In this document: in pieces, positions 1 to 39,794 of the stretch
Layout of the letters: each line of letters begins with the position of its first letter
Numbering within the stretch: the first letter of the stretch is position 1
Source: a virus
Virus record (IMG/VR): IMGVR_UViG_3300048589_000210
Location: 1-39,794 of that record
Strand: one strand, 5' to 3'
DNA: 39,794 bases
Program-made: the position numbers and the translations under genes
Notes under the pieces: model-generated
Told to the model about the DNA's origin: nothing
Databases searched by the model: none
Seen by the model: only the letters and a program-made list of their open reading frames with translations

Positions 1-87
1 GCAAGAAACTACCCCGACCTAATCGACGCATCTTACAAACCAAATACAGAAGTGAGTCAACCAATCCGGCCGCTTGGTTTGTCATGA
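1..87 (+). CDS. C-terminal end of a small phage protein (probable continuation of the 39549 gene)
   Basis: Bases 1-87 are an open frame ending at TGA 85-87, encoding 28 residues that end in PIRPLGLS. No start lies inside the window. If the sequence is circular, the last codon at the right edge (CAG) is followed in frame by this segment, giving one protein of about 110 residues. The stop overlaps the first base of the tRNA-like attachment segment, so the gene runs convergently into the attachment site and integrase. Frame 3 is also open for about 120 bases, so the frame choice rests on the end-joining argument. Function unknown. Confidence 0.5.
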   Translation, partial: ARNYPDLIDASYKPNTEVSQPIRPLGLS

Positions 88-126
88 CCCTGGTAGGATT
101 TGAACCTACAACCAATTGATTAAGAG
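85..126 (-). other. attP: Attachment site core: 3' half of a tRNA-Lys(CTT)
   Basis: Read on the minus strand, these 42 bases match the second half of a tRNA. They hold an anticodon loop CTCTTAA (anticodon CTT), the 3' anticodon-stem strand TCAAT, a 5-base variable loop, a T arm GTAGG-TTCAAAT-CCTAC, the acceptor 3' strand CAGGGTC and discriminator A. The bases that would form the 5' half (127 onward) neither pair with the anticodon stem nor contain GACCCTG, so this is not a tRNA gene. A 3' tRNA segment beside a tyrosine integrase is the classic phage attachment core, which restores the host tRNA on integration. Only one copy is present, so attP of a circular form fits better than a prophage with two ends. 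Confidence 0.72.
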
Positions 127-207
127 CTAATAGGCAAACCCCAATTTAATGAAATTTAACCTTATTTATGGGCAATTTATGCCCCTTTAATCCCCCAGAA
201 AGACTTT

Positions 208-5171: not shown

Positions 5172-5536
5172 GCATCTTTTGGGACATGGCTCGTGAGTAC
5201 CACGCCCCCGACAACGAGAGCGAGGTTCTTTGCGAACGATGTCCTTTTAGGGTCAAGATTCTTACTATCGATCCCCCCGAAAGCGAAAAACCAATATTGG
5301 ATCAAGTTAGAGACCTCAGAGTCGATTACTGCAATCTTCATCAGATACCCGATCCTCATGCTCGACAAGAACAGGTCATGCTAATCATGGGTTACAACCA
5401 CGCCCTAAGTGATGTAGCAAAACTCTTGGTCCGAGGCATTCCCCAGATTGTGGAGAAGATGGATGGTACATGCTTGGATGATGAAGCAGACAGGGAGCGA
5501 TTTATAAAAGCACTATATGGAGCAGACAAAGACTAA
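5168..5536 (+). CDS. Hypothetical protein with N-terminal Cys pair
   Basis: 122 residues. The N-terminus has CERCPFRVKI, a CxxC that could bind zinc, with further Cys and His (YCNLHQIPDPH). The rest is helical (ARQEQVMLIMGYNHALSDVAKLLV), and the C-terminus ends in an acidic DEADRERF helix. I do not recognise the family. It overlaps the next gene by 20 bases. A nucleic-acid or protein adaptor role is possible but unproven. Confidence 0.55.
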   Translation: MSIFWDMAREYHAPDNESEVLCERCPFRVKILTIDPPESEKPILDQVRDLRVDYCNLHQIPDPHARQEQVMLIMGYNHALSDVAKLLVRGIPQIVEKMDGTCLDDEADRERFIKALYGADKD

Positions 5537-5999
5537 AAAGATACGACTCACAAGAGGCAAATACGCCCTGATAGACGCGGCCGACTTTGAGAGGGTTAAT
5601 CAATACAAATGGTTTTGTGACTTTGCGGATTATGCAGCACGAGATATTAAGATCACGGGGAAGCATAAGAGGGTTTGGCTTCACAGATGGCTATTGGAAG
5701 CGAAGAAGGGTGAAATCGTAGACCACGTTAATCAGGATACGTTAGACAATCGCAGATCAAATCTAAGGTTTTGCACGATCAAACAGAATTGTAGGAACGC
5801 CAGACTTCCGGTGAGCAACACCACTGGATACAAGGGAGTTAGGGCAGGAAAGACGGGGAAGAACTTTTCAGCGTTTATCAAGGTTAACAGGAAACAAATC
5901 CACTTGGGTATGTATTCCACTCGTAAGGAAGCCGCCAAAGCGTACAACCGTGCAGCACTCAAATATTTTGGAGAATATGCAAGTTTGAATCCCATATGA
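5517..5999 (+). CDS. HNH endonuclease with C-terminal AP2 domain (homing-type)
   Basis: 160 residues. An HNH_3 nuclease core (WLHRWLLEAKKGEIVDH, then NQDTLDNRRSNLRFC) occupies about residues 50-95. It is followed by an AP2 DNA-binding domain (GYKGVRAGKTGKNFSAFIKV, then LGMYSTRKEAAKAYNRAALK) at about 103-158. The same HNH-AP2 layout is widespread in free-standing homing endonucleases of phages. The gene overlaps both neighbours, so it has settled in the operon rather than interrupting a gene. It may be selfish, or may have been recruited for DNA processing. Confidence 0.88.
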   Translation: MEQTKTKKIRLTRGKYALIDAADFERVNQYKWFCDFADYAARDIKITGKHKRVWLHRWLLEAKKGEIVDHVNQDTLDNRRSNLRFCTIKQNCRNARLPVSNTTGYKGVRAGKTGKNFSAFIKVNRKQIHLGMYSTRKEAAKAYNRAALKYFGEYASLNPI

Positions 6000-6766
6000 A
6001 GGAAGGAATATTGATTAGCGGGTCAGTCAGAGATATAAAGCGTCCAGGTGTTGACGATTACAACGCTCATGAGGCGATACGGTCAGCATTGGAGAAGAAT
6101 TTAAAATTTGAACACCGCGATCTGGTCATGGATGTTTACAGACGTACTGATATTATTTGCCAGAGGTTGTTCCCAGTGATCCACACTCCTTCATTTGAAG
6201 GAAGATTGCCCGCACCAATAGTATCTGTTGAAGACGAGCGCAACTGGAAGGTCTTGGCTTCTTACCGACTTGTCCCAGATGGCTACGGTCTTGATCACAA
6301 GCTGACTTTAAACGAAGAACATATCAAGGATGGAAAATGGGTTTGGGGTGAATGGTCACTCTACGAAACCATAACCCACGAGGTTGGGCATGAATATCAC
6401 CAAGTGTTGGGGAAAGATCCGTACCGACCAGGCGATAAGGTTACTCATAAGCCCGAATTTAGGGCACTTATGGCGAATTTGGGGATTCATTGTGATGCAA
6501 GGGGAGTACACACAGCACCCGCCGACGAGGATAAACCTTTCGCAATTCTGATGAGGGAGTGGGGAATAGCACGCCCAGACATGGAAGGGATCGACACAGG
6601 CAAACAAAATTGGTTCTTCTCTCAACCAGACACCCCAGAGAAGAAGGGCAGATCAACACTAACAAAGTACGAATGTCCCTCCTGCGGCTTGAAGGTCCGT
6701 TATGGTAGACAAGACGAGCCATTTTTGATGCACGTACCGTGCGGGGAGCTGTTGGTAAGGAAGTAG
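5996..6766 (+). CDS. SprT-like zinc metalloprotease with C-terminal zinc ribbon
   Basis: 256 residues. The active-site helix is HEVGH at 128-132 (ETITHEVGHEYHQ), and H151 is a plausible third zinc ligand. The C-terminus has CPSC at 227-230 and a later VPCG, which would form a zinc ribbon as in SprT/Spartan-type proteases. Spartan relatives cut proteins cross-linked to DNA. Phage and plasmid copies may remove bound host proteins or act as anti-defence proteases. It ends the early operon, with 63 bases before the methyltransferase gene. The substrate is unknown. Confidence 0.68.
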   Translation: MKEGILISGSVRDIKRPGVDDYNAHEAIRSALEKNLKFEHRDLVMDVYRRTDIICQRLFPVIHTPSFEGRLPAPIVSVEDERNWKVLASYRLVPDGYGLDHKLTLNEEHIKDGKWVWGEWSLYETITHEVGHEYHQVLGKDPYRPGDKVTHKPEFRALMANLGIHCDARGVHTAPADEDKPFAILMREWGIARPDMEGIDTGKQNWFFSQPDTPEKKGRSTLTKYECPSCGLKVRYGRQDEPFLMHVPCGELLVRK

Positions 6767-6829: not shown

Positions 6830-8146
6830 TTGACCACTAAAAACGGAAACGGCACTTCATTTAGCGATCCTGCATTTGCAACTAACAAAACGTCTCCCGT
6901 ACACAGGTGGGTCCCTTGGATAGCGGGGTTCTCCAGAGATTTCGTGCAAGGCGCGCTCAAGACATATTTGCATCACAGCCGAAGCACTGTACTAGATCCA
7001 TTTGCGGGAGTGGGTACGACTTTAGTTGAGGCTGTTCTTTCGGGACATAACGCGGTTGGTTATGAAATCAATCCCTACGCTTCATTGGTGTCACAAACAA
7101 AACTCAATGCTTACAAGGTAGACGTAAACCTTTTTAAAAAGACAATCGAAGCTTTTATTGCGTTTATGTTTGACGCAGGTTTTTCTGGTCGTGAACCTGT
7201 CTCCGAACCTCCAAAGGGATTTTCTACACGATCCCCGTTCTATAGTCCTGAAGTCTTACGCAAAGTTCTGTTCGTTCAGGATTTCATCATAACCATTGAT
7301 GATCAGGAAATACGGGATTTATTCCGTATTGCTTTTGCTTCGACAATGGTGACTTACTCTAATTATTCCTATGAGCCTAGTTTAGGTAGGCGTGTCAGTG
7401 CAGGTAGGGCGGATGTATTAGACCACGATGTTGCCGGCGAGATGGAACGTAAACTAAACACAATGCTTGACGATATTTATTGGTTTAGAAACACAATTCC
7501 CGATATCAGTGTCGAATCCAAGGTGTTTAATCAATCTTTCTTTGAGTACGCAAATTTTTTAGAAAGAGAATCGGTTGATGTTCTAATAACTTCACCTCCC
7601 TATGTGAACAACTATCACTACAATAGAAACACCAGACCGCACTTGTATTGGCTTGGTCTCGCTGAAAAACCTAAAGACTTTGTACCCTTGGAAGAAAGGA
7701 ACTTCGGCACCTTCTGGCAGACGGTCAGAGAAAAACCCGAAATACCTTTGGATTTTACATTGCCCGATTCAGACCTTGAAGAAAGACTTGCCACGCTGCG
7801 AGAACTAAATAAGGAAAAGGGCATTTACGGAGGCGGGGGCTGGGCTAACTATGCCACCGTCTATTTCAATGACTGTTTCAGGTTTGCACAGGGAATGGAA
7901 TACTCTTTGAAATCAGGAGCCACCGCTTTAGTTGTGGTTGGACCAAGCATCTTACAGGGTGTGTTTATTCCGACAGACCTTTATCTAGGGCAAATCGCGA
8001 AATTAACGGGATTAGAGCTGGTCGAGATACACATTCCCCGAACAACTAGAGTTGGAAACAGTATAATCCAGTCAGATATCAGAGTTGGTAAGGCAGACAC
8101 ATCGAAACAACTCTATGAAGCAGTGGTGGAAATCAGGAAGTCTTAG
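6830..8146 (+). CDS. DNA methyltransferase, amino-group (TSPPY) type
   Basis: 438 residues. AdoMet-binding motif I is DPFAGVGTT at 56-64, and catalytic motif IV is TSPPY at 254-258. TSPPY is typical of N4-cytosine methylases, though some N6-adenine enzymes have it; 5-methylcytosine enzymes use a different motif. The region between the motifs probably carries target recognition. The start is TTG 6830, backed by TAGGGAG about 8 bases upstream. It faces an Eco29kI-family restriction gene with a 14-bp tail-to-tail overlap, so it is most likely the protecting methylase of a type II system. An orphan phage methylase is less likely given this partner. Confidence 0.85.
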   Translation: MTTKNGNGTSFSDPAFATNKTSPVHRWVPWIAGFSRDFVQGALKTYLHHSRSTVLDPFAGVGTTLVEAVLSGHNAVGYEINPYASLVSQTKLNAYKVDVNLFKKTIEAFIAFMFDAGFSGREPVSEPPKGFSTRSPFYSPEVLRKVLFVQDFIITIDDQEIRDLFRIAFASTMVTYSNYSYEPSLGRRVSAGRADVLDHDVAGEMERKLNTMLDDIYWFRNTIPDISVESKVFNQSFFEYANFLERESVDVLITSPPYVNNYHYNRNTRPHLYWLGLAEKPKDFVPLEERNFGTFWQTVREKPEIPLDFTLPDSDLEERLATLRELNKEKGIYGGGGWANYATVYFNDCFRFAQGMEYSLKSGATALVVVGPSILQGVFIPTDLYLGQIAKLTGLELVEIHIPRTTRVGNSIIQSDIRVGKADTSKQLYEAVVEIRKS

Positions 8147-8774
8147 AATCAAGCAAAGTGAAATAACTGTCAATCTTATCTAATATTGGTTCAACAGTGC
8201 GTGGAGAGCTTTCCATTTTAGATACGAACGAACGCCCTGGGTGAATAGAATCCCATTCCGATTGAAGTTGTCTGGCTCGACCTTTACCTGGATCATGAAT
8301 ACCGAAGCCATCTACGTAGGTGTTCCATAGTGGCCTAAACTTTGCAATTAGAGCTGATTCTACCGTACGGATTAACCCCGTCTCCTTGCCAAGCATCAAA
8401 ACAAAACGACATCTAAAATCATCAAGAGACAAGTTGTTTGCACTCCCTATACTTCTGGAGTGCTCTCTCAGGCGACCATGAACCCTCGTGCTAGTAGTCT
8501 CTTCTACCCTCCCTTGACGCACTCCCTTTGAACTTGCTTGTCCAACATAGATCGGGATCTGCACACTGGGTCGATTCAGTGTGCCCAGACGTTGATATAT
8601 CCCATCTTGCCCCACAAAGTAAATTGCATAGACACCCTCGCCTTGAAACGAGAAGCCTGGGGGTAGGTTGTAAACTGGTGTACTAAGGAAAAAGTCAATC
8701 GCTTCGTCTACAACCACTTGAAGAACTGAAGACTTGAACAGATGGTTGATTGGGTTAAATTCACTCGACTGCAC
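8133..8774 (-). CDS. Eco29kI-family GIY-YIG restriction endonuclease
   Basis: 213 residues. The GIY-YIG core is seen as GVYAIYF (Y49) and IYVGQAS (Y76), then HGRLREHSRS (R101, H105), ES (E139) and WNTYVDGFG (N151). The motif GFGIHDPGKGR with WDSIHPGR near the end is characteristic of the Eco29kI family. From memory, R.Eco29kI uses Tyr49, Tyr76, Arg104, His108, Glu142 and Asn154, which fits with a shift of three residues. Eco29kI cuts CCGCGG, but specificity here is unknown. The start is GTG at 8774, with GGGAGG 5-6 bases upstream. Opposite orientation to the methylase allows separate control. Confidence 0.85.
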   Translation of the reverse strand: MQSSEFNPINHLFKSSVLQVVVDEAIDFFLSTPVYNLPPGFSFQGEGVYAIYFVGQDGIYQRLGTLNRPSVQIPIYVGQASSKGVRQGRVEETTSTRVHGRLREHSRSIGSANNLSLDDFRCRFVLMLGKETGLIRTVESALIAKFRPLWNTYVDGFGIHDPGKGRARQLQSEWDSIHPGRSFVSKMESSPRTVEPILDKIDSYFTLLDSKTS

Positions 8775-9046: not shown

Positions 9047-9413
9047 TGAACAAAAATCAACAGAAATAGAGGAAGTATTTGAACCTACCCCCCTAATGCT
9101 CAAATGGCTTGATACCGCTATTGACCTTGGTTACACGGCTTCGATCACAGATGTAGCTGAAGCATCCGAAATTAACCGAGGTACTTGGTATCTGTGGGTG
9201 AAAGATCCGAAATTTGTTGAGTGGTGGGATTCGCAATGGCAGAAATACCTTACTCTTAACAGATGGAAGCTCGACGCAATAGGCATGAAACAGGCTGAAC
9301 GAAACTTCGATTACTGGCACGACATGATGGAGCGTACAGGCAATTTACAGCAAAAACAACAATTGGGAAACATGACACAAGTTAATGTCAGTCTAGATAA
9401 ATACATGAAATGA
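9033..9413 (+). CDS. terS: Terminase small subunit
   Basis: 126 residues from ATG 9033. An N-terminal helix-turn-helix (ITDVAEASEINRGTWYLWVK, about residues 32-51) is followed by helical segments, as in terminase small subunits that recognise phage DNA and form a ring. The assignment also rests on the large subunit starting 4 bases before its stop. A TTG-started extension from 9015 lies inside the preceding gene and is rejected. It should direct packaging initiation together with the proteins at 9410-11006. Confidence 0.7.
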   Translation: MSEPNEQKSTEIEEVFEPTPLMLKWLDTAIDLGYTASITDVAEASEINRGTWYLWVKDPKFVEWWDSQWQKYLTLNRWKLDAIGMKQAERNFDYWHDMMERTGNLQQKQQLGNMTQVNVSLDKYMK

Positions 9414-10363
9414 TCGCATACAAAGAGTTCATCGAGGACAACTTTCTTATCATCAACAAGAAGGGTGAAATTGTCCCCTTTAAACTCAATGACACACAGA
9501 ATTACTACTACAATCTCCTCTTAGCCGATTACCCCGATTTACAAGGCGTACGCGAAAACATCCTCAAGTTTAGACAGCCTGGATTTTCTTCTCTAATCGA
9601 CGCTATCTTTACGGTTGACTTCATATTCGCGGAACACGGCAAGACCCCATTAGTTGATGCTGATATCGTGTCGCACAAGGAGAAGGAAACCAAGGTGCTA
9701 TTTAAACGCGTTGACTTCTTTCTTGATTCCTACCTTGAAAAACAACATATCAACCGAAAACTATTCCTTGAGACCGATACAGGACTCCAGATCGTGGGCA
9801 GACGTGGAGCAGTCATAAACGTCCAGACTGGTAACGCCAAAGTATCCGGCCGAGGTGGAACTAAGCAGAATCTTCACTGGTCCGAGGTAGCCTTCTATCC
9901 CAACACGGAAATATTAAGTGCTGAGGACTTGGTAACAGCAGCCGAACAGCAGGTTGCTGATGGGATCGGTAAGATATTCAGAGAGTCTACGGGAAACATC
10001 GCTGGAGACTTCTTCGCTTCAGAATATGAACGCGGGAAAGCAGGAGAAGGAGAATTTAAAAGCAGGTTCTTGTCATGGTGGATTCACAAAGAATATTCAC
10101 TTACTCCTCCCGACGACTGGAGGCCCACGCCCGACTACAAGAAGCTGATGGATGATAACAAGGCTTCAAGAGATCAATGCTACTGGCACTTCAAGAAGGT
10201 ACTTAACTCTAAGAATGAGGCAAAGATCAGGCGCGAATATCCAATGGATGACACTGAAGCATTCTTGATGGGTGGAGATATGTACTTCAATGCGGAAGTA
10301 ATTAAGATGTGGCACATAGGCAATATCAAGAAACCAATTACAGACAAACCAATATATGTTTAG
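9410..10363 (+). CDS. terL: Terminase large subunit, ATPase part
   Basis: 317 residues. The ATPase has the K-x-R-Q-x-G-x-S form of Walker A seen in many terminases (KFRQPGFSS, 53-61), Walker B with the catalytic Glu (LHWSEV, E159), and a coupling motif ESTGN at 192-196. The frame stops at 10363, just before the nuclease part, which lies in the +1 frame from 10356. Together the two total about 533 residues, a normal full-length size, so the large subunit is split. The stop context is TAT GTT TAG A. A coupled two-gene form, a +1 frameshift and a sequence error are all possible. Confidence 0.85.
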   Translation: MIAYKEFIEDNFLIINKKGEIVPFKLNDTQNYYYNLLLADYPDLQGVRENILKFRQPGFSSLIDAIFTVDFIFAEHGKTPLVDADIVSHKEKETKVLFKRVDFFLDSYLEKQHINRKLFLETDTGLQIVGRRGAVINVQTGNAKVSGRGGTKQNLHWSEVAFYPNTEILSAEDLVTAAEQQVADGIGKIFRESTGNIAGDFFASEYERGKAGEGEFKSRFLSWWIHKEYSLTPPDDWRPTPDYKKLMDDNKASRDQCYWHFKKVLNSKNEAKIRREYPMDDTEAFLMGGDMYFNAEVIKMWHIGNIKKPITDKPIYV

Positions 10364-11006
10364 ACAATTTAGACCGATAGAAAAGGGTGAATTTATCATC
10401 ATTGCTGCCGACTGTTCGCAAGGTGGACTAGATGACAACTTCGCTCAATTCTTTAGTAAGACAAAGTTAGATTTTCCTCTCGTGTATCAAATGAAGGGTG
10501 TAGCAGCCGAGATGACTACTGCCATTTACCCCGTATTAAATCGGATCTTTGACGTTACTGGAGTCAGACCCTTAGTTGCATTTGAGCGTAACAATGGAGG
10601 GGCTTCAGAGATGCAGAGACTCGACGTGTTAAATCGTGAAAGCAAATATGATATATTCAAGATGGTCACAACGGGGACTGCCAGAACAGAGACTGAACGG
10701 ACAACCGATAAATTGGGTTGGGATACCAACGTAGCAACGCGACCTACAATGCTTGGGGACTGGAAGGTTGCTTTTGACGGCCGGCTTGTAACGATCTATG
10801 ACGAGCCGACACTTAACCAACACAAGACATTTGTTGTTAATAAGAGGGGTAAGCCAGAAGCGGCGAGTAACCAAAGGGATGATGCAGTAATGGCTTGTTC
10901 TATTGCTTGGCAGATCCATCAGATGACGCAATTGCCGAGTACTGGGAGTTTCAATTATCAAGAACCGGAATGGGCTAATGAAATGCCGTCTTGGTCACAA
11001 TCATGA
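10356..11006 (+). CDS. Terminase large subunit, nuclease part
   Basis: 216 residues with the RNase H-like headful nuclease signature of terminases: AADCSQGG (D19) on the first strand, LVAFERNNGG (E77) on a later strand, and QRDDAVMA (D175/D176) in the C-terminal helix. These three acidic positions bind the metals that cut DNA. Its ATG overlaps the stop of the ATPase ORF (ATGTTTAG, 8 bases), which allows re-initiation by terminating ribosomes. The protein would have to associate with the ATPase half to make a working motor. It overlaps the next gene by ATGA. Confidence 0.85.
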   Translation: MFRQFRPIEKGEFIIIAADCSQGGLDDNFAQFFSKTKLDFPLVYQMKGVAAEMTTAIYPVLNRIFDVTGVRPLVAFERNNGGASEMQRLDVLNRESKYDIFKMVTTGTARTETERTTDKLGWDTNVATRPTMLGDWKVAFDGRLVTIYDEPTLNQHKTFVVNKRGKPEAASNQRDDAVMACSIAWQIHQMTQLPSTGSFNYQEPEWANEMPSWSQS

Positions 11007-11896
11007 GAATACTGATGCTGACATACGAAAGAGGGGTTGACCTCGAAGATTTTACTCTACCCACGGGTAAGAGAATCCAGCATCAGGTAATGTATACGGA
11101 TTGTAACGAAATAGAGAAGGAGGGATTAGGAACAGTATTAGCTTGGATCAGGGAGTTCAAACCCGAACTTATCATAGAGAGGGAGTTCAACGATGGCAAG
11201 GCGATCTACACTGACATACTTAATGAGTTTCCAAACGTGAAGAAGGCAGCTTGGCTAATAGATACGCATTGTTCGTGGGAGAGGCATAGCCAGTACGCAA
11301 AACAGTTTGATTACATCTTCTTGGCTATCAGTAAGTTTGTGGAGCCGATCAAGAAAGCGGTCGAGCACGACAGGGTTTATTGGCTACCGCTTTGCTATCC
11401 AACTAAAGTAAGCACCATTAGACCTAACTATGGCCCTGTTAAGTGTCCAGTTAGCTTTGTGGGTAGATTCGGTAAATCGCACCCAACAAGAACGCTTTAT
11501 CTCTCTGCACTTGCCGAGAGGTATGGAGGCGACTTCTTGTGTGTTACTGATTACGACAGAGCAAACGCCATAATCAGAAGCTCAAAAATTTCCTTTAACT
11601 ATTCCCTAGATGATGATCTTAACTTCCGTGTGTGGGAAGTGTTGGGCGCGGGTACGGAACTGGTAACAGACAGCGTTACTGACTTGCATAAAGTTAAAGG
11701 GTTGGAGCACCGAGTTCATGTATTTAAAAACATAGACGAGATGATCGAACTTACTGACAGGATACTCGCCGATGATCCATCAACAACCAAGAACGCATTA
11801 GATAATCAAAATTGGGTCAAACAAAAACATTGTCTAATACACCGCCATTTGGCGATGTTAGACATGATCGAACATGGTAGCCAACACGAATACTAA
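11003..11896 (+). CDS. Glycosyltransferase, CgeB / GT4-like
   Basis: 297 residues from ATG 11003 (ATGA overlap with terminase; the TTG at 10991 is rejected). The C-terminal half has the hallmark of CgeB-type Glyco_trans_1_2 proteins: FVGRFGKSHPTR, SKISFNYSL, then NFRVWEVLGAGTELVTD, where the Glu in RVWEVLGAG fits the sugar-nucleotide site. The N-terminal half is a Rossmann-like domain (FKPELIIEREFNDG, KKAAWLIDTH). It should transfer a sugar from a nucleotide donor. It is the first of six sugar-modification genes between terminase and portal, with no membrane segment. Confidence 0.8.
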   Translation: MRILMLTYERGVDLEDFTLPTGKRIQHQVMYTDCNEIEKEGLGTVLAWIREFKPELIIEREFNDGKAIYTDILNEFPNVKKAAWLIDTHCSWERHSQYAKQFDYIFLAISKFVEPIKKAVEHDRVYWLPLCYPTKVSTIRPNYGPVKCPVSFVGRFGKSHPTRTLYLSALAERYGGDFLCVTDYDRANAIIRSSKISFNYSLDDDLNFRVWEVLGAGTELVTDSVTDLHKVKGLEHRVHVFKNIDEMIELTDRILADDPSTTKNALDNQNWVKQKHCLIHRHLAMLDMIEHGSQHEY

Positions 11897-12605
11897 ACCA
11901 TATCTAGTTAGCAGCGCCTCGATGAGTCCAGGAGTTGAGGGATATGTGGCATCACTAAAGAATTTAAAAGACAGTGTGAATTGGATATCGGTTGAGTATG
12001 ACCCGCCTCTTGAAGTCTCTGAGGTGGATTCACTGACAAACCTTATTCGAATAGAAACGCACAGATCCTACTCAGGACATCTTCAAAGGTTTACCGATCT
12101 TCTGGACAAACTAACAACAATGGAAAATGGTTGGTATATCTTCACGGACACAGCAGACGTTCGTTTTCAAGCACCAATCCCGAATTTAAAATCAGTCGAT
12201 AAACCGATCATTGCCGTGAGCGAAGGGATACTACACAAGGAACATTCGTGGTGGACAGGGATGATTGAAGAATATCCCGAATTTAGGCCACTATTGGATG
12301 AGCCAGTTCATAACATGGGTGTAGTGGCGATGCGAGGATATATGTTTTTGACGTTCCTTAACTATCTACGAAACGTAAACTCTGCCGGCAGGTATGCACA
12401 CAACTGTGATCAAGCTCTATACAACTTATTCCTATTAGAGTGGAAAGACGAAGTGGCATACCATCCATCACTTATGACGTGTCTGTTTGATAATTGGTCT
12501 AAGGGTAATGTGCTAAAGAAAGACGGACTATTTGTGAATCGGGAAGGTGAACCGTACTCGATTGTCCACGCAAACGGCAATCACAAGAACTTACTTGAAT
12601 GCTGA
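11874..12605 (+). CDS. Glycosyltransferase with DxD motif, GT8/GT-A-like
   Basis: 243 residues. YIFTDTADVRF carries a DTAD (DxxD/DxD-type) metal-binding motif in mid-protein, preceded by a helix that ends at the active-site strand. VHNMGVVAMRG and NCDQALYNLF resemble the acceptor and donor positions in GT-A enzymes that check for 'N-GV' and 'DQ'. The end, YSIVHANGNHKN, supplies a late His often used as metal ligand in GT8-type folds. It overlaps the previous gene by 23 bases and the next by 7. Sugar specificity cannot be read from the sequence. Confidence 0.7.
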   Translation: MVANTNTKPYLVSSASMSPGVEGYVASLKNLKDSVNWISVEYDPPLEVSEVDSLTNLIRIETHRSYSGHLQRFTDLLDKLTTMENGWYIFTDTADVRFQAPIPNLKSVDKPIIAVSEGILHKEHSWWTGMIEEYPEFRPLLDEPVHNMGVVAMRGYMFLTFLNYLRNVNSAGRYAHNCDQALYNLFLLEWKDEVAYHPSLMTCLFDNWSKGNVLKKDGLFVNREGEPYSIVHANGNHKNLLEC

Positions 12606-13117
12606 AGATAAACGACGGGAGAAAGAAGGTATATATCGTTCTAGGACGTAACAGTTCGGGGACATCTTTTTTATCTAAGGCACTTGTAGATCAAGGTGTC
12701 GATATGGGGAATACACTAATAACCGATCCTCCAGTCTATGAAAATGAATTGTTTTTGAGATTCAATGAAAAAGTATTATCTGAAGCAGGAGGGGACTGGA
12801 AGAACATCCCGCCAATGGAGGACATAGAACGCGCTTTTAATGCCAACAAGGAGCACGCCAGATCAATCCTGTACGCCAACTATGGCAAGGACAAATGGGG
12901 TTGGAAAGATCCAAGGAACTCAATAACGGGTCATCTGTGGATACGCCTACTTAAAGAGATAGATCCCGAACTTGATATTTATCTTATCTGCATATTCAGA
13001 GATACGGATAAGGTTGCACGAAGTCTTGCGGCCGACAACTACACCGACATGGTGGAATTAAGCAGGGTGTATAATGAATCGGTTGTCAGGATCGTTAGAG
13101 AATTTACCAATACATAA
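12599..13117 (+). CDS. Sulfotransferase-like P-loop protein
   Basis: 172 residues. The N-terminus has VLGRNSSGTSFLSKAL, the 5'-phosphosulfate loop form of PAPS-dependent sulfotransferases, where a G-R-x-x-S-G-T-S pattern replaces Walker A. WGWKDPRN and IFRDTDKVARSL match the 3'-phosphate-binding part. It is short for the family (usual size 220-300), so the acceptor region is reduced. It should move sulfate from PAPS to a glycan or protein hydroxyl. It is flanked by glycosyltransferase and methyltransferase genes, so a sulfated glycan is the simplest reading. A nucleotide kinase-like role is the alternative. Confidence 0.68.
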   Translation: MLKINDGRKKVYIVLGRNSSGTSFLSKALVDQGVDMGNTLITDPPVYENELFLRFNEKVLSEAGGDWKNIPPMEDIERAFNANKEHARSILYANYGKDKWGWKDPRNSITGHLWIRLLKEIDPELDIYLICIFRDTDKVARSLAADNYTDMVELSRVYNESVVRIVREFTNT

Positions 13118-13690
13118 ATGGAGGAAGATTTTTATTCAGTAGATTATTTTGGGAAGTTGAACGCAGTCGAGGAAGTTCAAGCGCAGGTGCTAGCCGATAC
13201 GGTTATCGGTTTGTATCATCCTCAATCTGTTATTGATCTTGGTTGTGCCACGGGGATATATCTTAAGCCATACGCCGACAAAGGAATAGAGGTTAAGGGA
13301 CTGGAGTTGTCAAAGAACGCTCTCGATTCTTCAGTTTGCGTTATTCCCGACAAGATAGAGGTTGCAGACTTGCGCACTCCTATTACTTTGGATCGTAAGT
13401 ACGATGTAGCGGTATGTCTTGAGGTACTGGAACACATCAAAGAGAAGTACAGCGATCAAGCGGTGGCGAATATCTGTAACGCCAGTGATGTTTTAATTGT
13501 GTCTATGGCTAAGCCAGGTCAACCGGGGGAACATCACCACACGCTCATGCCTAGGCAATGGTGGTTTGACAAGTTCCAGAAACACAGTTTCACGCCCCAC
13601 TACGATAATACCGCCGTGATTTACGACAGTTTAGAGAACTCACCATCACATACCAACTGGATAGATAACATAATTGTTTTTAAAAGATGA
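13118..13690 (+). CDS. Class I SAM-dependent methyltransferase
   Basis: 190 residues. AdoMet motif I is VIDLGCATGIYLKP and motif II-like acidic residue lies in EVKGLELSKNA. YDVAVCLEVLEHI is the typical motif IV strand and helix of small-molecule or sugar O-methyltransferases. HHHTLMPRQWWFDKF is a late segment found in cassette methylases that act on polysaccharide ends. It starts one base after the sulfotransferase stop and overlaps the next gene by ATGA. It is not a DNA methylase (no D/T/S-PPY). It probably methylates a sugar made by its neighbours. Confidence 0.82.
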   Translation: MEEDFYSVDYFGKLNAVEEVQAQVLADTVIGLYHPQSVIDLGCATGIYLKPYADKGIEVKGLELSKNALDSSVCVIPDKIEVADLRTPITLDRKYDVAVCLEVLEHIKEKYSDQAVANICNASDVLIVSMAKPGQPGEHHHTLMPRQWWFDKFQKHSFTPHYDNTAVIYDSLENSPSHTNWIDNIIVFKR

Positions 13691-14373
13691 TAAGCGCAGT
13701 CGTACCCTTTTTTAATAACGAAGATGGTTTAGCCGCTACGCTTCTCATGCTTCAACAGCAGACACTCCTACCTGATCAAATCATCATACTCGACTCCTCT
13801 AAAGACAAACGTGGATTGGCACTCGCCAGACGATACCGCTTACCAGAGGTAAAGATCGTGGTCGAGATACATAAAGGCAACATCTACCAAGCTTGGAACA
13901 AGGGAATAGAACTTGCCGGATTGTCTGATTGCCTAATCATTAACGACGATCTTCTACTGCCACTGGACACGATAGAGATACTGGACAAAGCTACACGCCT
14001 TGTTCCCGCAAGTGCTCTCGTGCCAGAGACACCGCCAAGACATTTTAAAAGCGATCACGTTGAGGGGGGCTTCACTTGGTTGTCTGAAGTGTCGGGAGCC
14101 GATATGACCGATTGGCTTACTGGTTTTTGCTTCTTACTCCCCAGAAAGACTATCGATAAGGTAGGTCTATTCGATGAGAAGTATGACGTTTGGTTTGGAG
14201 ATACTGATTATGAACGAAGGATTTTAGAAGCAGATGGATCGGTTGTCAGGCTGAATGGACTGTGGGTCTATCACTTCGGATCAAGCTCTTACGGCCGACT
14301 GGATCAAGAGAATCTAAATACAAGAATCGAAAGCGACAGACTCTACTTTGAAAGCAAATGGGAAAGAAAATAA
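13687..14373 (+). CDS. Glycosyltransferase family 2
   Basis: 228 residues of GT-A fold. The start, ISAVVPFFNNEDGLAATLLM, is the GT2 nucleotide-binding strand. IIILDSSKD and LIINDDLLLP carry the donor-binding Asp and the DxD-type metal site (NDD). FDEKYDVWFGDTDYERR supplies the acceptor-side acidic motif seen in GT2 enzymes (ED/D-D near residue 175). No transmembrane helix is present, so it is a soluble enzyme. It overlaps its neighbours by 4 and 16 bases. Confidence 0.85.
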   Translation: MISAVVPFFNNEDGLAATLLMLQQQTLLPDQIIILDSSKDKRGLALARRYRLPEVKIVVEIHKGNIYQAWNKGIELAGLSDCLIINDDLLLPLDTIEILDKATRLVPASALVPETPPRHFKSDHVEGGFTWLSEVSGADMTDWLTGFCFLLPRKTIDKVGLFDEKYDVWFGDTDYERRILEADGSVVRLNGLWVYHFGSSSYGRLDQENLNTRIESDRLYFESKWERK

Positions 14374-15014
14374 GTGTACTGATTACGTCACATCCTGCGG
14401 TTGAAAAATACCTTGAGGAGTGTGTGCAATCAGTAAAAGCTCAGACCAGACAGCCAGACGAGATAGTTCTTGTGTTGGATGGATATGTAAGACCCTATAT
14501 TTTCCACGACGTAACAACTATTGCCCGTAGTGTAAACAAAGGGGTTGCATATTCCCGAAAACAAGCAGCGTTGGTATCTAGTGGGAGTCATATACTGTTT
14601 CTCGATGGAGACGACACCATACCAGAAACATTTTTAGAGGAGATGGAAAACACCGATGCAGATATTGCTTATCCAGATACTTTATTGTGGAGCTACTGGA
14701 GCAGTAAGCCTAAAGAGAATGTCTTACACAGATCACCAAAAAGAATCACCGAGAGACTGATGCTAAGACACAACAGAATCGTTGTGACCAGCCTAATGAA
14801 GCGCGAGGTATTCGACAAGATAGGCGGCTTTGACCCCAAGTTGCCTGTTTTTGAGGATTACAAGTTTTTCCTTGCAGCACTAAAGAAGGGATTTACTTTT
14901 AAAAAAGCGAATACCTACATGAAGTACCGACAAAGGCAGGACTCAAGAAACCGTGTGTCGTTGGATATTAGAAGGGACACGTACAACAAAATAGTTCGTT
15001 GGTATCATGCCTAG
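14358..15014 (+). CDS. Glycosyltransferase family 2
   Basis: 218 residues, a second GT2 enzyme: ISVLITSHPAVEKYLEECVQ, then QPDEIVLVLDG (donor Asp), NKGVAYSRKQAA (the N-x-G-x-A-x-A-R helix), ILFLDGDDTI (DGDD metal motif) and FEDYKFFLAALKKG (catalytic ED). All key GT2 residues are in place. It differs from the neighbouring GT2 protein, so the two likely add different sugars. It overlaps the sigma-like gene by 8 bases, which ties the sugar cassette into one transcript with the head genes. Confidence 0.88.
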   Translation: MGKKISVLITSHPAVEKYLEECVQSVKAQTRQPDEIVLVLDGYVRPYIFHDVTTIARSVNKGVAYSRKQAALVSSGSHILFLDGDDTIPETFLEEMENTDADIAYPDTLLWSYWSSKPKENVLHRSPKRITERLMLRHNRIVVTSLMKREVFDKIGGFDPKLPVFEDYKFFLAALKKGFTFKKANTYMKYRQRQDSRNRVSLDIRRDTYNKIVRWYHA

Positions 15015-35312: not shown

Positions 35313-36059
35313 ATGGCACAGAATACCCACAGTCTTGATTTAGAAGCATCAAGCTCGCAATATGCGTACATCGCTGATGGATCACAAACAGGACTCGATA
35401 TCACTGGAGATCTCTCGGTTGAGGCGTGGATAAACCTAGAGAGCTTACCGTCAGGTAGTAATCACGTCATTGCAAGCAAATGGGATGACAACGGAAATGA
35501 CGAGAGATCGTGGATTTTTTATGTTAGTGAGGCGGCGGGTACTTACTACATATCATTTTACAATTCCAGTACGGGAGGTGGAGGTGGCGACATAGCCAAT
35601 GTGTATGTGACCTGGACTCCCTCAACGGCAACATGGTATCACCTTGCGATGGCTTATGATGCTTCTGCTGGAACTGTTGATTTTTACGTTAACGGAAGCC
35701 TACAGGGGACGCAACAAAGTGGTTCAAAAACATCACTTTACAACAGCGCTGCACCATTTCAGATCGGGGCGAGGAATGATCCACGGACGGAATATTTTGA
35801 CGGACTCATTGACGAAGTAAGGGTTTGGGATGACATACGAACATCGGGGGAATTGTTAGCTAACTACAACACACACCTAGTTGGAAACGAAGCAAATCTA
35901 AAAGGATACTGGAGATTCAATAACAGTGCCTTAGACGAAACATCCAACAACAACGATCTAACACTTGCCAATACACCTGTTTATTCAACTGATGTGCCGT
36001 TTACCATACCAGAAGGCGGCAATCCTCTATTCTTTTCGGGTGGAGTAACAATAGGATGA
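35313..36059 (+). CDS. LamG/concanavalin-like domain protein (putative receptor-binding)
   Basis: 248 residues, almost entirely one LamG (laminin-G-3) jelly-roll. The conserved parts are SLDLEASSSQYAYIADGSQT, the strand SVEAWINLESLPSG, ATWYHLAMAYDASAGTVDFY with VNGSL, FQIGARNDPRTEYFDGLIDE, and VRVWDDIRT. The 'YWRFN...DETSNNNDL' element is also present. Such domains bind sugars or glycoproteins, and in phages they sit at fiber tips. It may bind the host surface. The start lies 2 bases after the previous stop, with no ribosome site, so translation is probably coupled. Confidence 0.8.
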   Translation: MAQNTHSLDLEASSSQYAYIADGSQTGLDITGDLSVEAWINLESLPSGSNHVIASKWDDNGNDERSWIFYVSEAAGTYYISFYNSSTGGGGGDIANVYVTWTPSTATWYHLAMAYDASAGTVDFYVNGSLQGTQQSGSKTSLYNSAAPFQIGARNDPRTEYFDGLIDEVRVWDDIRTSGELLANYNTHLVGNEANLKGYWRFNNSALDETSNNNDLTLANTPVYSTDVPFTIPEGGNPLFFSGGVTIG

Positions 36060-36529: not shown

Positions 36530-37402
36530 ATGATTAGGGTCAAAAGACCAGTGGGTAAGGATAACAGACAAACGCAGGGATACTCAGTGAAGCACAAGGG
36601 TTACGACCACAGTGCTAAGGGAGATCCCAACTATTACAGCAGTTTTGTCGGAGTCGTTACCCAAAGCAAAAACTCGGAGACCAAGAACTGGATCAATAGT
36701 GGAACGCTTACAACAGCCGATTATGGGAACTATATCAAGATCAAAGCAGTGGTTGATGGACAAACTATCTATCAACTTGGTGCGCACTTCCAAACTGGAT
36801 CAGTTCTACCAGTGGGAACGCAAGTTCAAGCGGGACAGGTTGTCGCACAGATCGGAAATACCGGAAACTCGACAGGCGCACACTCACACACGGAATACCG
36901 CGACTCGGACAACAAAAACTTTCCTGTTGAATTTACCGACCAGGTGGAAGCAGGAGATAACGGAACTCAACAGCCTATGGACAAAAAACAACAAATAATT
37001 GACGCCTATCTTGGTACACGCCCCGACACTCCCCCTTCGGACGACGAGATCAATGCTCGACTTCAACAGAACAAAAACCCAGTGGAGTTGGTCCGCGACA
37101 TCCTTGGTGGGGATGGCAACGCGAAACGGTATTGGCTCGACCACTGGGGAGTTAAGCCCGATGACATCAACTGGCAAGTAATAGCAGAACAGTATAAGGA
37201 AAACTACAACGACCTTAAATCGACTCTAGGGCTTCCAGTATCCGCAGACACCGAAGAAGTAATGGGCAAGGTCAGAGGCCTCTTAGAGAGAGTTACAGAG
37301 CTTGAGAAAGCGGTTGAGCCAAAGGTGATCTATCGCTTAGAGGGCAAAGACTACGAGAAAGTAATCAAGTTTGGGAATCTAGCAATCATCTTGGAGAAAT
37401 GA
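36530..37402 (+). CDS. M23-family metallopeptidase endolysin
   Basis: 290 residues. The M23 (LytM-like) zinc site is complete: H22 and D26 in HKGYD, H86 in GAHFQTG, and H118-x-H120 in GAHSHTEYR. The family strand VGTQVQAGQVVAQIGNTGNSTG is also present. It should cut cross-bridges of the cell wall at lysis. No signal peptide is present, so release needs the holin. Residues about 150-290 are helical, with charged coiled-coil segments (KVRGLLERVTELEKAVEPKV), perhaps a wall-binding or oligomerisation region. It overlaps the next gene by ATGA. Confidence 0.85.
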   Translation: MIRVKRPVGKDNRQTQGYSVKHKGYDHSAKGDPNYYSSFVGVVTQSKNSETKNWINSGTLTTADYGNYIKIKAVVDGQTIYQLGAHFQTGSVLPVGTQVQAGQVVAQIGNTGNSTGAHSHTEYRDSDNKNFPVEFTDQVEAGDNGTQQPMDKKQQIIDAYLGTRPDTPPSDDEINARLQQNKNPVELVRDILGGDGNAKRYWLDHWGVKPDDINWQVIAEQYKENYNDLKSTLGLPVSADTEEVMGKVRGLLERVTELEKAVEPKVIYRLEGKDYEKVIKFGNLAIILEK

Positions 37403-37843: not shown

Positions 37844-38110
37844 ATGGGCAATAATGAACGCAGAGTAGGAAAGACAGACAAAGACTTTAACGAGTTGTTT
37901 GGTCTTGCGAACAGAATTGCACAGGCTAAAAATCCTCAAAGATTCTTCGATGGAGCAAAAGATCAAGAAGAAGGCTTAACCTCACAAGTGGAATGGAACG
38001 CCGGAATCCAGACACTACACGATGAGATGGATAAACGATTGGAAGGTGGAGTGATGAGAGATTTTGTCGAGGAACTACCAATCAAGAAGCGTGTCAGCCC
38101 CAAACGATGA
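37844..38110 (+). CDS. Hypothetical protein, right-end region
   Basis: 88 residues, charged and helical (DKDFNELFGLANRIAQAKNP, then LHDEMDKRLEGG), with a basic tail (IKKRVSPKR). No family recognised. It is separated from the lysis genes by the 37759 hairpin and an A/T-rich stretch that may hold a promoter (TATCAT at 37813-37818). It overlaps the next gene by ATGA. It may belong to a lysogeny-time or delayed unit. Confidence 0.5.
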   Translation: MGNNERRVGKTDKDFNELFGLANRIAQAKNPQRFFDGAKDQEEGLTSQVEWNAGIQTLHDEMDKRLEGGVMRDFVEELPIKKRVSPKR

Positions 38111-38310
38111 AAACTGAAATCATCACATTAGACAGGAGTCAACGAAATAGACTGCTTGGCAGGGAGACCGACAGAGACCCCAAAGAAAAATATCTCGGAA
38201 TCGTAGGTATGTACTCTTTTAAGGACAAAGAGTATTACACAGCCATTTATGACTTCAAGGGTAATCGACTTGGGGGTAATCTATCCACTTCAAGGAAACG
38301 GAGGGCTTAA
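38107..38310 (+). CDS. Small basic hypothetical protein
   Basis: 67 residues with a beta-rich centre (EKYLGIVGMYSFKDKEYYTA, IYDFKGNRLGG) and a basic end (STSRKRRA). It overlaps the preceding gene by 4 bases. It faces the minus-strand membrane protein gene, ending 26 bases before that gene's stop. Function unknown; the compact beta form suggests a small binding domain. Confidence 0.5.
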   Translation: MKTEIITLDRSQRNRLLGRETDRDPKEKYLGIVGMYSFKDKEYYTAIYDFKGNRLGGNLSTSRKRRA

Positions 38311-38335: not shown

Positions 38336-39433
38336 CTAATCTAAGCGGGTAATGACTAGGTTGTCGATACTAGCGTTAACAAATTCGATTTCAATACTTC
38401 CGCTTTCAGAGTGGTTGTTTATAAAAGTAAAAAATCTCTCGCCCGATCCAGACACTTGATTGTCCTCAACCAGAATATCAACCTTTCCAGCGAACTCTGC
38501 GTATGTATCGGGTATTGTTATGTTACCACCGCTACCGTGAAAGATGCATTCCCCACGACCGGCGACCTCAAGGCATTCAATAGATTTGCCACCACCGATC
38601 CGAAGATTAACGACAATCGAATAGAATGGTATCGTTTCATAATCGAACGTGATCCGATAATTCCGCCAAGTTTCGTCGCCAATAGTCAGGGACGACTCTT
38701 TGGTGACATCCTGAAGGACTCCATTGACGATAATTGGATTGCCCGAGACTGTAAACGCAGGATCAATCTCACCGTCGTCAAAATCCTCTATGTACTCGCT
38801 TTGAGCAATGGGAGTCGGTGTAGCGGTAGGAGCAGACGTTACCTCAACAGTCACGGGCACTTCAGCAACCACCTCAACTAACCGTGTAGTTTCAACAGTA
38901 ACTGGAACTTCTTCGATGGATTCGACTATCCTAGTTACTTCATTTGTGACTTCCACCTCTTCCTTGACGATACGTGTCACTTCTTCGATTCTCGTAACCT
39001 CTATCTCATTAGTCACTGTAAGTGGAAGCAGGGCATCCAGTAACCAATACAGGACGATCAGTCCCACTAGACCGCCAAGGATCAAAAGTATTGGGCTTCT
39101 ACGTCTGGGTTCGTCTTGCCTTCCGGCAGGATCGTCTTTGATTTCAGTTGGCGCGGTTGGGGGAGGAGGACCGCCACCAAACAACTGTCTTATGGATCGG
39201 TCTGTCTCATCGTTTGCTCTACCGAGTATGTATGGACACGCCTGGTCAATTGTGAAGGGTCTCAAGTTTGACGAGGCACTTATCCGCAGATTCCTACAAG
39301 TGGTCTCACTCCACCCTGTATCAGCCGAGAGATCGATATCTTTGTAGTCTGGGTGTTCGCACAGTAGCTTAACGACCCGCAATTCTTGAGGATTAAGGAA
39401 ACTTACGCGGGATTTAATGTCGCTTGCGTCCAT
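38336..39433 (-). CDS. Membrane protein with cytoplasmic HTH, repeat stalk and LamG-like ectodomain
   Basis: 365 residues. Residues 12-58 form a LuxR/sigma-4-like helix-turn-helix (LNPQELRVVKLLCEHPDYKD, then DLSADTGWSETTCRNLRIS). A Pro linker (GGGPPPPTAPTE) and Arg triplet (110-112) precede one membrane helix (113-138), so the N-terminus is inside. Outside are EVTRIV/VPVTVEVT repeats (142-200), PTATPTP, and a jelly-roll-like domain from about 213 to the end (YIEDFDDGEIDPAFTVSG, WRNYRITFDYETI). The layout is that of one-component membrane regulators such as ToxR/CadC. The strong AGGAGGGG site supports ATG 39433. Opposite strand to the lytic genes, so expression in lysogens is likely. Confidence 0.65.
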   Translation of the reverse strand: MDASDIKSRVSFLNPQELRVVKLLCEHPDYKDIDLSADTGWSETTCRNLRISASSNLRPFTIDQACPYILGRANDETDRSIRQLFGGGPPPPTAPTEIKDDPAGRQDEPRRRSPILLILGGLVGLIVLYWLLDALLPLTVTNEIEVTRIEEVTRIVKEEVEVTNEVTRIVESIEEVPVTVETTRLVEVVAEVPVTVEVTSAPTATPTPIAQSEYIEDFDDGEIDPAFTVSGNPIIVNGVLQDVTKESSLTIGDETWRNYRITFDYETIPFYSIVVNLRIGGGKSIECLEVAGRGECIFHGSGGNITIPDTYAEFAGKVDILVEDNQVSGSGERFFTFINNHSESGSIEIEFVNASIDNLVITRLD

Positions 39434-39480
39434 GACCCCTCCTGAGACACAAAACAGCCCGAAAGACGACCGAAAGACTT

Positions 39481-39496
39481 AATTTCTTAAGAAATT
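39481..39496. promoter_or_regulatory. Perfect 16-bp palindrome in divergent promoter region
   Basis: AATTTCTTAAGAAATT is a perfect inverted repeat midway between the minus gene start (39433) and the plus gene start (39549), so it is a probable operator. On the minus strand it is followed by two direct repeats of GTCTTTCGG, 11 bp apart (39456-39475). The neighbouring HTH membrane protein is the first candidate to bind it. Confidence 0.45.
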
Positions 39497-39548
39497 TAAT
39501 GATCTATGCTGAAAGTAGGATTTTAAATTCAGTTGAGGAGATAAGCAA

Positions 39549-39794
39549 ATGAACGCAGTAGATGTTCGGGAAATGGTCTGGGTAGAGAGTGTTGACACGG
39601 CTCAAGCAGTAATAGAGTTTGGTAACCAGCATGGCATGACCTTCAAGGTGTTAGACCGAAGGGACCTGCTTCAGCAGACAGAGCGCGATGAGAAGTATGT
39701 TTATTACCCTATCGACGAACTGCCTCAAGGGTTTCACATCCCTAACGAAGCACATCGGAGGCTCGAGATGGTGGGGTCTAACTTCCCTATCCAG
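39549..39794 (+). CDS. Small hypothetical protein, N-terminal part (continues beyond window)
   Basis: 82 residues to the right edge, with no stop. A good GAGGAG site (39535-39540) lies 8 bases before the ATG. The sequence (MNAVDVREMVWVESVDTAQA, then YYPIDELPQGFHIPNEAHRR) has no family I recognise. If the map is circular it continues in frame into bases 1-87, giving about 110 residues. It is divergent from the HTH membrane protein gene and would be read toward the attachment core and integrase. Confidence 0.6.
   Translation, partial: MNAVDVREMVWVESVDTAQAVIEFGNQHGMTFKVLDRRDLLQQTERDEKYVYYPIDELPQGFHIPNEAHRRLEMVGSNFPIQ

Follow-up and report, generated by a model that had tools for sequence, protein, structure and literature searches.

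Introduction

The cellular regulators ToxR and CadC have an HTH of the OmpR-type winged-helix kind, while the phage LuxR-type quorum-sensing receptors, exemplified by VqmA, are soluble, cytoplasmic proteins with diffusible ligands. Single-pass transmembrane transcription regulators (TTRs) are a recognised cellular class, and the paper on TTRs makes no mention of phages (PMC10269533). No phage-encoded transmembrane regulator was found in the literature searched, the coverage of which was limited and is not proof that none is known. Among prophage proteins, the membrane-anchored PdpSau is linked to holin/amidase genes, has a suggested DNA-binding fold, and acts in phage immunity in S. aureus (PMC10127798).

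We analysed a gene at positions 38336–39433 (minus strand) of a 39,794-base window, which is the linear IMG/VR record IMGVR_UViG_3300048589_000210. Its 365-residue product combines an HTH, a transmembrane helix, a stalk, and a lectin-like ectodomain. Like ToxR/CadC-type TTRs (PMC10269533), it would have a cytoplasmic HTH, one transmembrane helix, and an external domain in one chain. It differs from them in its GerE/LuxR-like HTH, for which DNA binding is predicted, its ConA-like ectodomain, and its temperate-phage origin. With VqmA of phage VP882 (PMC8284805, PMC10426928), it shares being encoded by a phage, a LuxR-type DNA-binding domain, and possibly the reading of outside conditions, but its sensor would lie outside the membrane. 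Like PdpSau, it is an accessory protein of a prophage that is anchored in the membrane, encoded next to lysis genes, and possibly in contact with nucleic acid, but PdpSau differs in its domains, with an inside OB-fold-like region and no lectin-like ectodomain (PMC10127798). We hold it a little better than even that the gene encodes a single-pass transmembrane transcription regulator of a temperate phage, which reads an external ligand via its lectin-like ectodomain.

Results

The window virus is most likely a temperate phage, because it carries an integrase and a tRNA att fragment. The tyrosine integrase gene, a temperate-phage marker, is located at 231–1328 on the minus strand. Adjoining it is the 3' half of a tRNA (85–133, minus strand), which was read by eye from the anticodon loop CTCTTAA to the discriminator. 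This piece of about 46 nt reads as Lys-CTT, scores below threshold against the Rfam tRNA model (16.2 bits), and is the probable att core. A terminal repeat of the contig was looked for and none was found. The plus strand carries portal and capsid genes and an M23 peptidase. The integrase gene was also considered as an identical copy of the 38336–39433 gene; this was rejected, as the equal length is coincidental.

Several other features of the window were observed. A type II restriction-modification pair is composed of a methyltransferase (6830–8146) and, on the strand opposite to it, an Eco29kI-like endonuclease (8133–8774). A cluster of glycosyltransferase and methyltransferase genes at 10991–15014 possibly serves surface or DNA modification. 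The terminase-like gene at 9410–11006 appears as two ORFs with an 8-base overlap (9410–10363, which has a weak TerL match, and 10356–11006), and may represent a split gene, a frameshift, or an assembly error. A separate LamG-like (Laminin_G_3) protein, 85% identical in the sister phage described below, is encoded among the late genes at 35313–36059.

The 38336–39433 gene is open throughout from its ATG start. The strong Shine-Dalgarno sequence AGGAGGGG (39436–39443, minus strand) is immediately upstream of the ATG, within a block of leader and first 11 codons that is identical in the sister phage. Hence, the opposite-strand gene with a strong ribosome site proposed by the first-pass annotation is confirmed. 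The gene is flanked by the lysis genes on one side and by the right arm on the other. It is convergent with a small gene, the last of the late series (38107–38310, plus strand), and its divergent neighbour (39549–39794, plus strand) is truncated by the contig end.

A relative of the gene is present in sister phage L002 (IMGVR_UViG_3300048589_000132) at 5295–6392. It also encodes 365 residues, with 59% identity, and has an equal position, an antisense orientation, and matching flanking genes. In L002, the counterpart of the 39549 gene is followed by a transmembrane protein and a VirD4/TraG-like ATPase. The window contig stops short of these right-arm genes (L002 2219–4439), whose ATPase is also a PADLOC mad8 match (E 3.6e-11). 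The lytic enzymes at the equal position differ, being an M23 peptidase in the window (36530–37402) and an enzyme of the endolysin/amidase PHROGs type in L002 (7322–8224).

The dN/dS over the gene pair is about 0.25; synonymous sites are close to saturated in both the HTH and the ectodomain, and the gene is, as judged from the two sequences, under purifying selection. The membrane part has 91% amino acid identity between the two phages. The ectodomain has 41% identity, compared with 64% for the HTH N-domain and 74–96% for the flanking genes, and therefore the outside part is the fastest-changing one. Synonymous divergence is uneven along the gene, which suggests segment exchange.

The known family is made up of these two sequences. 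No further homologue was found in phages, plasmids, GTDB contigs, 380 Patescibacteria genomes, or a Thermomicrobium plasmid; all but one of the scans reach mainly close relatives, and the GTDB scan is pattern-based, such that absence there is weak evidence. The protein has no family match above any cut-off, and no PADLOC match.

The capture of the gene from a Chloroflexota host, as put forward in the first-pass annotation, is not borne out: neither the plasmids nor the 380 Patescibacteria genomes yielded a cellular homologue, and the tRNA and capsid evidence points to Patescibacteria at least as much as to Chloroflexota. Specifically, the L002 contig ends in an intact tRNA-Met (tRNA-fMet), the att tRNA of the sister phage, which has a 99% match in four of 145 Patescibacteria genomes, whereas its best plasmid match is a Chloroflexota plasmid with 92%. 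This tRNA was considered as proof of the host and found not decisive. The sole capsid relative in the GTDB scan lies on a short contig that was assigned to a Patescibacteria bin. The tRNA-Lys fragment of the window has no match within two mismatches in 287 Patescibacteria.

The N-domain (residues 1–86; 39176–39433, minus strand) has an HTH core at residues ~12–57. It matches no Pfam family above the cut-off, GerE included; there is a weak HTH_24 match (E 0.045, residues 13–47). In the PDB, a LuxR-type response regulator is a weak in-register match (E 0.92). We aligned the N-domain by hhalign with GerE-type domains, the one HTH group that this comparison covered. Residues 9–54 are in register with the E. 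coli GerE domains of CsgD, RcsB, UhpA, and MalT (E 4.6e-4); the E value becomes 4.3e-5 once NarL is included as the fifth sequence. The scores are 24 and 29 with four and five sequences, respectively, compared with shuffle maxima of 17.0 and 17.8 and with 7 and 9 for the reversed sequence. None of 300 column shuffles is as good as the real GerE alignment. The match covers the entire HTH core, including the recognition helix. The HTH core of the L002 protein reads DIADDLPFSESTSRNLR, near the GerE consensus EIAxxLxxSxxTVKxH. The structure model places helices where an HTH needs them (pLDDT ~75–88), and thus the N-terminal region is predicted to fold as an HTH, in keeping with the first-pass annotation. 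Alignment and model support a LuxR/NarL (GerE)-like HTH, which would bind DNA. We label it GerE-like rather than a GerE family member because the Pfam GerE cut-off is not reached.

Residues 114–135 (39029–39094, minus strand) form the strongest hydrophobic helix, with a Kyte-Doolittle mean of 2.49 over 19 residues, and a helix is also seen here in the model. Arg-Arg-Arg precedes the helix. There are five Lys/Arg in the 15 residues before the helix and one after, a bias that favours an N-in/C-out topology with the C-terminal domain outside; from this positive-inside bias, the DNA-binding domain is predicted to be on the cytoplasmic side. Residues 136–207 (38813–39028, minus strand) constitute a Val/Thr/Glu-rich, putatively extracellular stalk (18 Val, 15 Glu, and 13 Thr of 69 residues). 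TRF detects no tandem repeat in the stalk at the DNA level, and the term VT-repeat used in the first-pass annotation is therefore overstated, while all four parts of the proposed architecture are supported.

The ectodomain (residues 208–365; 38339–38812, minus strand) is modelled as a ConA-like β-sandwich, with modest confidence (mean pLDDT 58). All matches listed by the fold search fell on this domain. The model matches ERGIC-53, the DUF1080 protein 3hbk, and GH43 accessory domains with Z of 10–11 over 130–141 residues. Hence, it has the same β-sandwich arrangement as DUF1080/3-keto-disaccharide hydrolases and the legume/ERGIC-53 lectins, but unlike them it has no sequence-family match; in particular, the 3-keto-disaccharide hydrolase family PF06439 (DUF1080) gives none above the Pfam cut-off. 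The model supports a concanavalin-A-like jelly-roll fold, which alone is no proof of sugar binding.

The AT-rich divergent intergenic region of 115 bp (39434–39548) would hold the promoters of both the 38336–39433 gene and the gene starting at 39549. No Rfam match to a structured leader RNA was found. The region contains a perfect 16-bp palindrome, AATTTCTTAAGAAATT (39481–39496), the longest perfect palindrome in the window, which agrees with the first-pass annotation. An equally long palindrome occurs in about 0.2% of shuffles of the 115-bp stretch versus 45% of whole-window shuffles. The palindrome is not conserved: it is broken in L002, where the TTAA pieces alone persist. We thus rejected it as a conserved operator. 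Its suggested operator role is weakened, and only weakened, because operators and recognition helices may co-vary, which leaves room for the palindrome as a candidate operator.

Discussion

The best and simplest reading is a TTR expressed by the prophage; the class is known from cells, and the literature searched gave no phage-encoded example. The DNA binding, ligand, target, and lysogenic expression in the following mechanism are what we infer. The GerE-like HTH would face the cytoplasm, the transmembrane helix would anchor the protein, and the stalk would hold the ConA-like domain on the outer side. There, an external ligand, which is most likely a surface polymer or a glycan, would bind, and the HTH would change its position or its oligomeric state in response. 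This change would alter transcription, most plausibly at the 115-bp divergent promoter region common to the next operon. The gene appears placed for expression in the lysogen from its own promoter. Its antisense orientation, own promoter, temperate-phage origin, and location by the lysis genes fit the lysogeny sensor or lysogenic conversion role of the first-pass annotation, a role that we infer rather than observe.

The same placement, antisense with an own promoter region between the lysis genes and right arm, is that of many prophage accessory genes, and would suit a lysogenic-conversion surface protein as well. Such a protein would serve superinfection exclusion, as a receptor mask, or as an adhesin, with the ectodomain acting outside and the HTH mainly autoregulating or anchoring. 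The ectodomain being the fastest-evolving part is as expected for an arms-race interaction, and PdpSau provides a precedent of a membrane-anchored prophage immunity protein in S. aureus (PMC10127798). However, a surface mask has no need of a conserved inside HTH, and PADLOC gives no match. We regard this explanation, the main rival to the regulator, as possible but unlikely.

HTH-like domains of membrane proteins can also serve contacts with proteins rather than DNA, as in RodZ. The HTH match is remote, and DNA-membrane functions may exist nearby because the L002 right arm encodes a VirD4/TraG-like ATPase. A membrane tether without a transcription role is thus conceivable, the HTH-like domain of which would contact protein or bind DNA non-specifically, either as a RodZ-like scaffold or in membrane anchoring of replicating phage DNA. 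It is made improbable by the span of the GerE-type match, recognition helix included, and by the divergent promoter region that the gene has of its own. A virion or tail component is very improbable: phage structural proteins often have lectin-like folds and the late genes include the separate LamG protein, but the gene is on the strand opposite to the late genes, and its product has a transmembrane helix and a predicted cytoplasmic HTH and lacks fibre features.

A more specific form of the transmembrane regulator is a prophage receptor-transcription factor, whose fast-evolving lectin-like ectodomain would recognise a glycan carried by neighbouring cells or by infecting phages, and which would switch the lysogenic programme or the adjacent right-arm operon. 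A virus would then sense from the outside in directly, with no signal in the cytoplasm; this we consider distinctly doubtful. Known phage sensors, such as arbitrium, VqmA, and LuxR solos, respond to molecules that have entered the cell. If the transmembrane regulator reading is true, a prophage could, via a one-chain protein, read what stays outside, for instance a surface glycan. Prophage sensing of neighbours would then become testable with a single protein.
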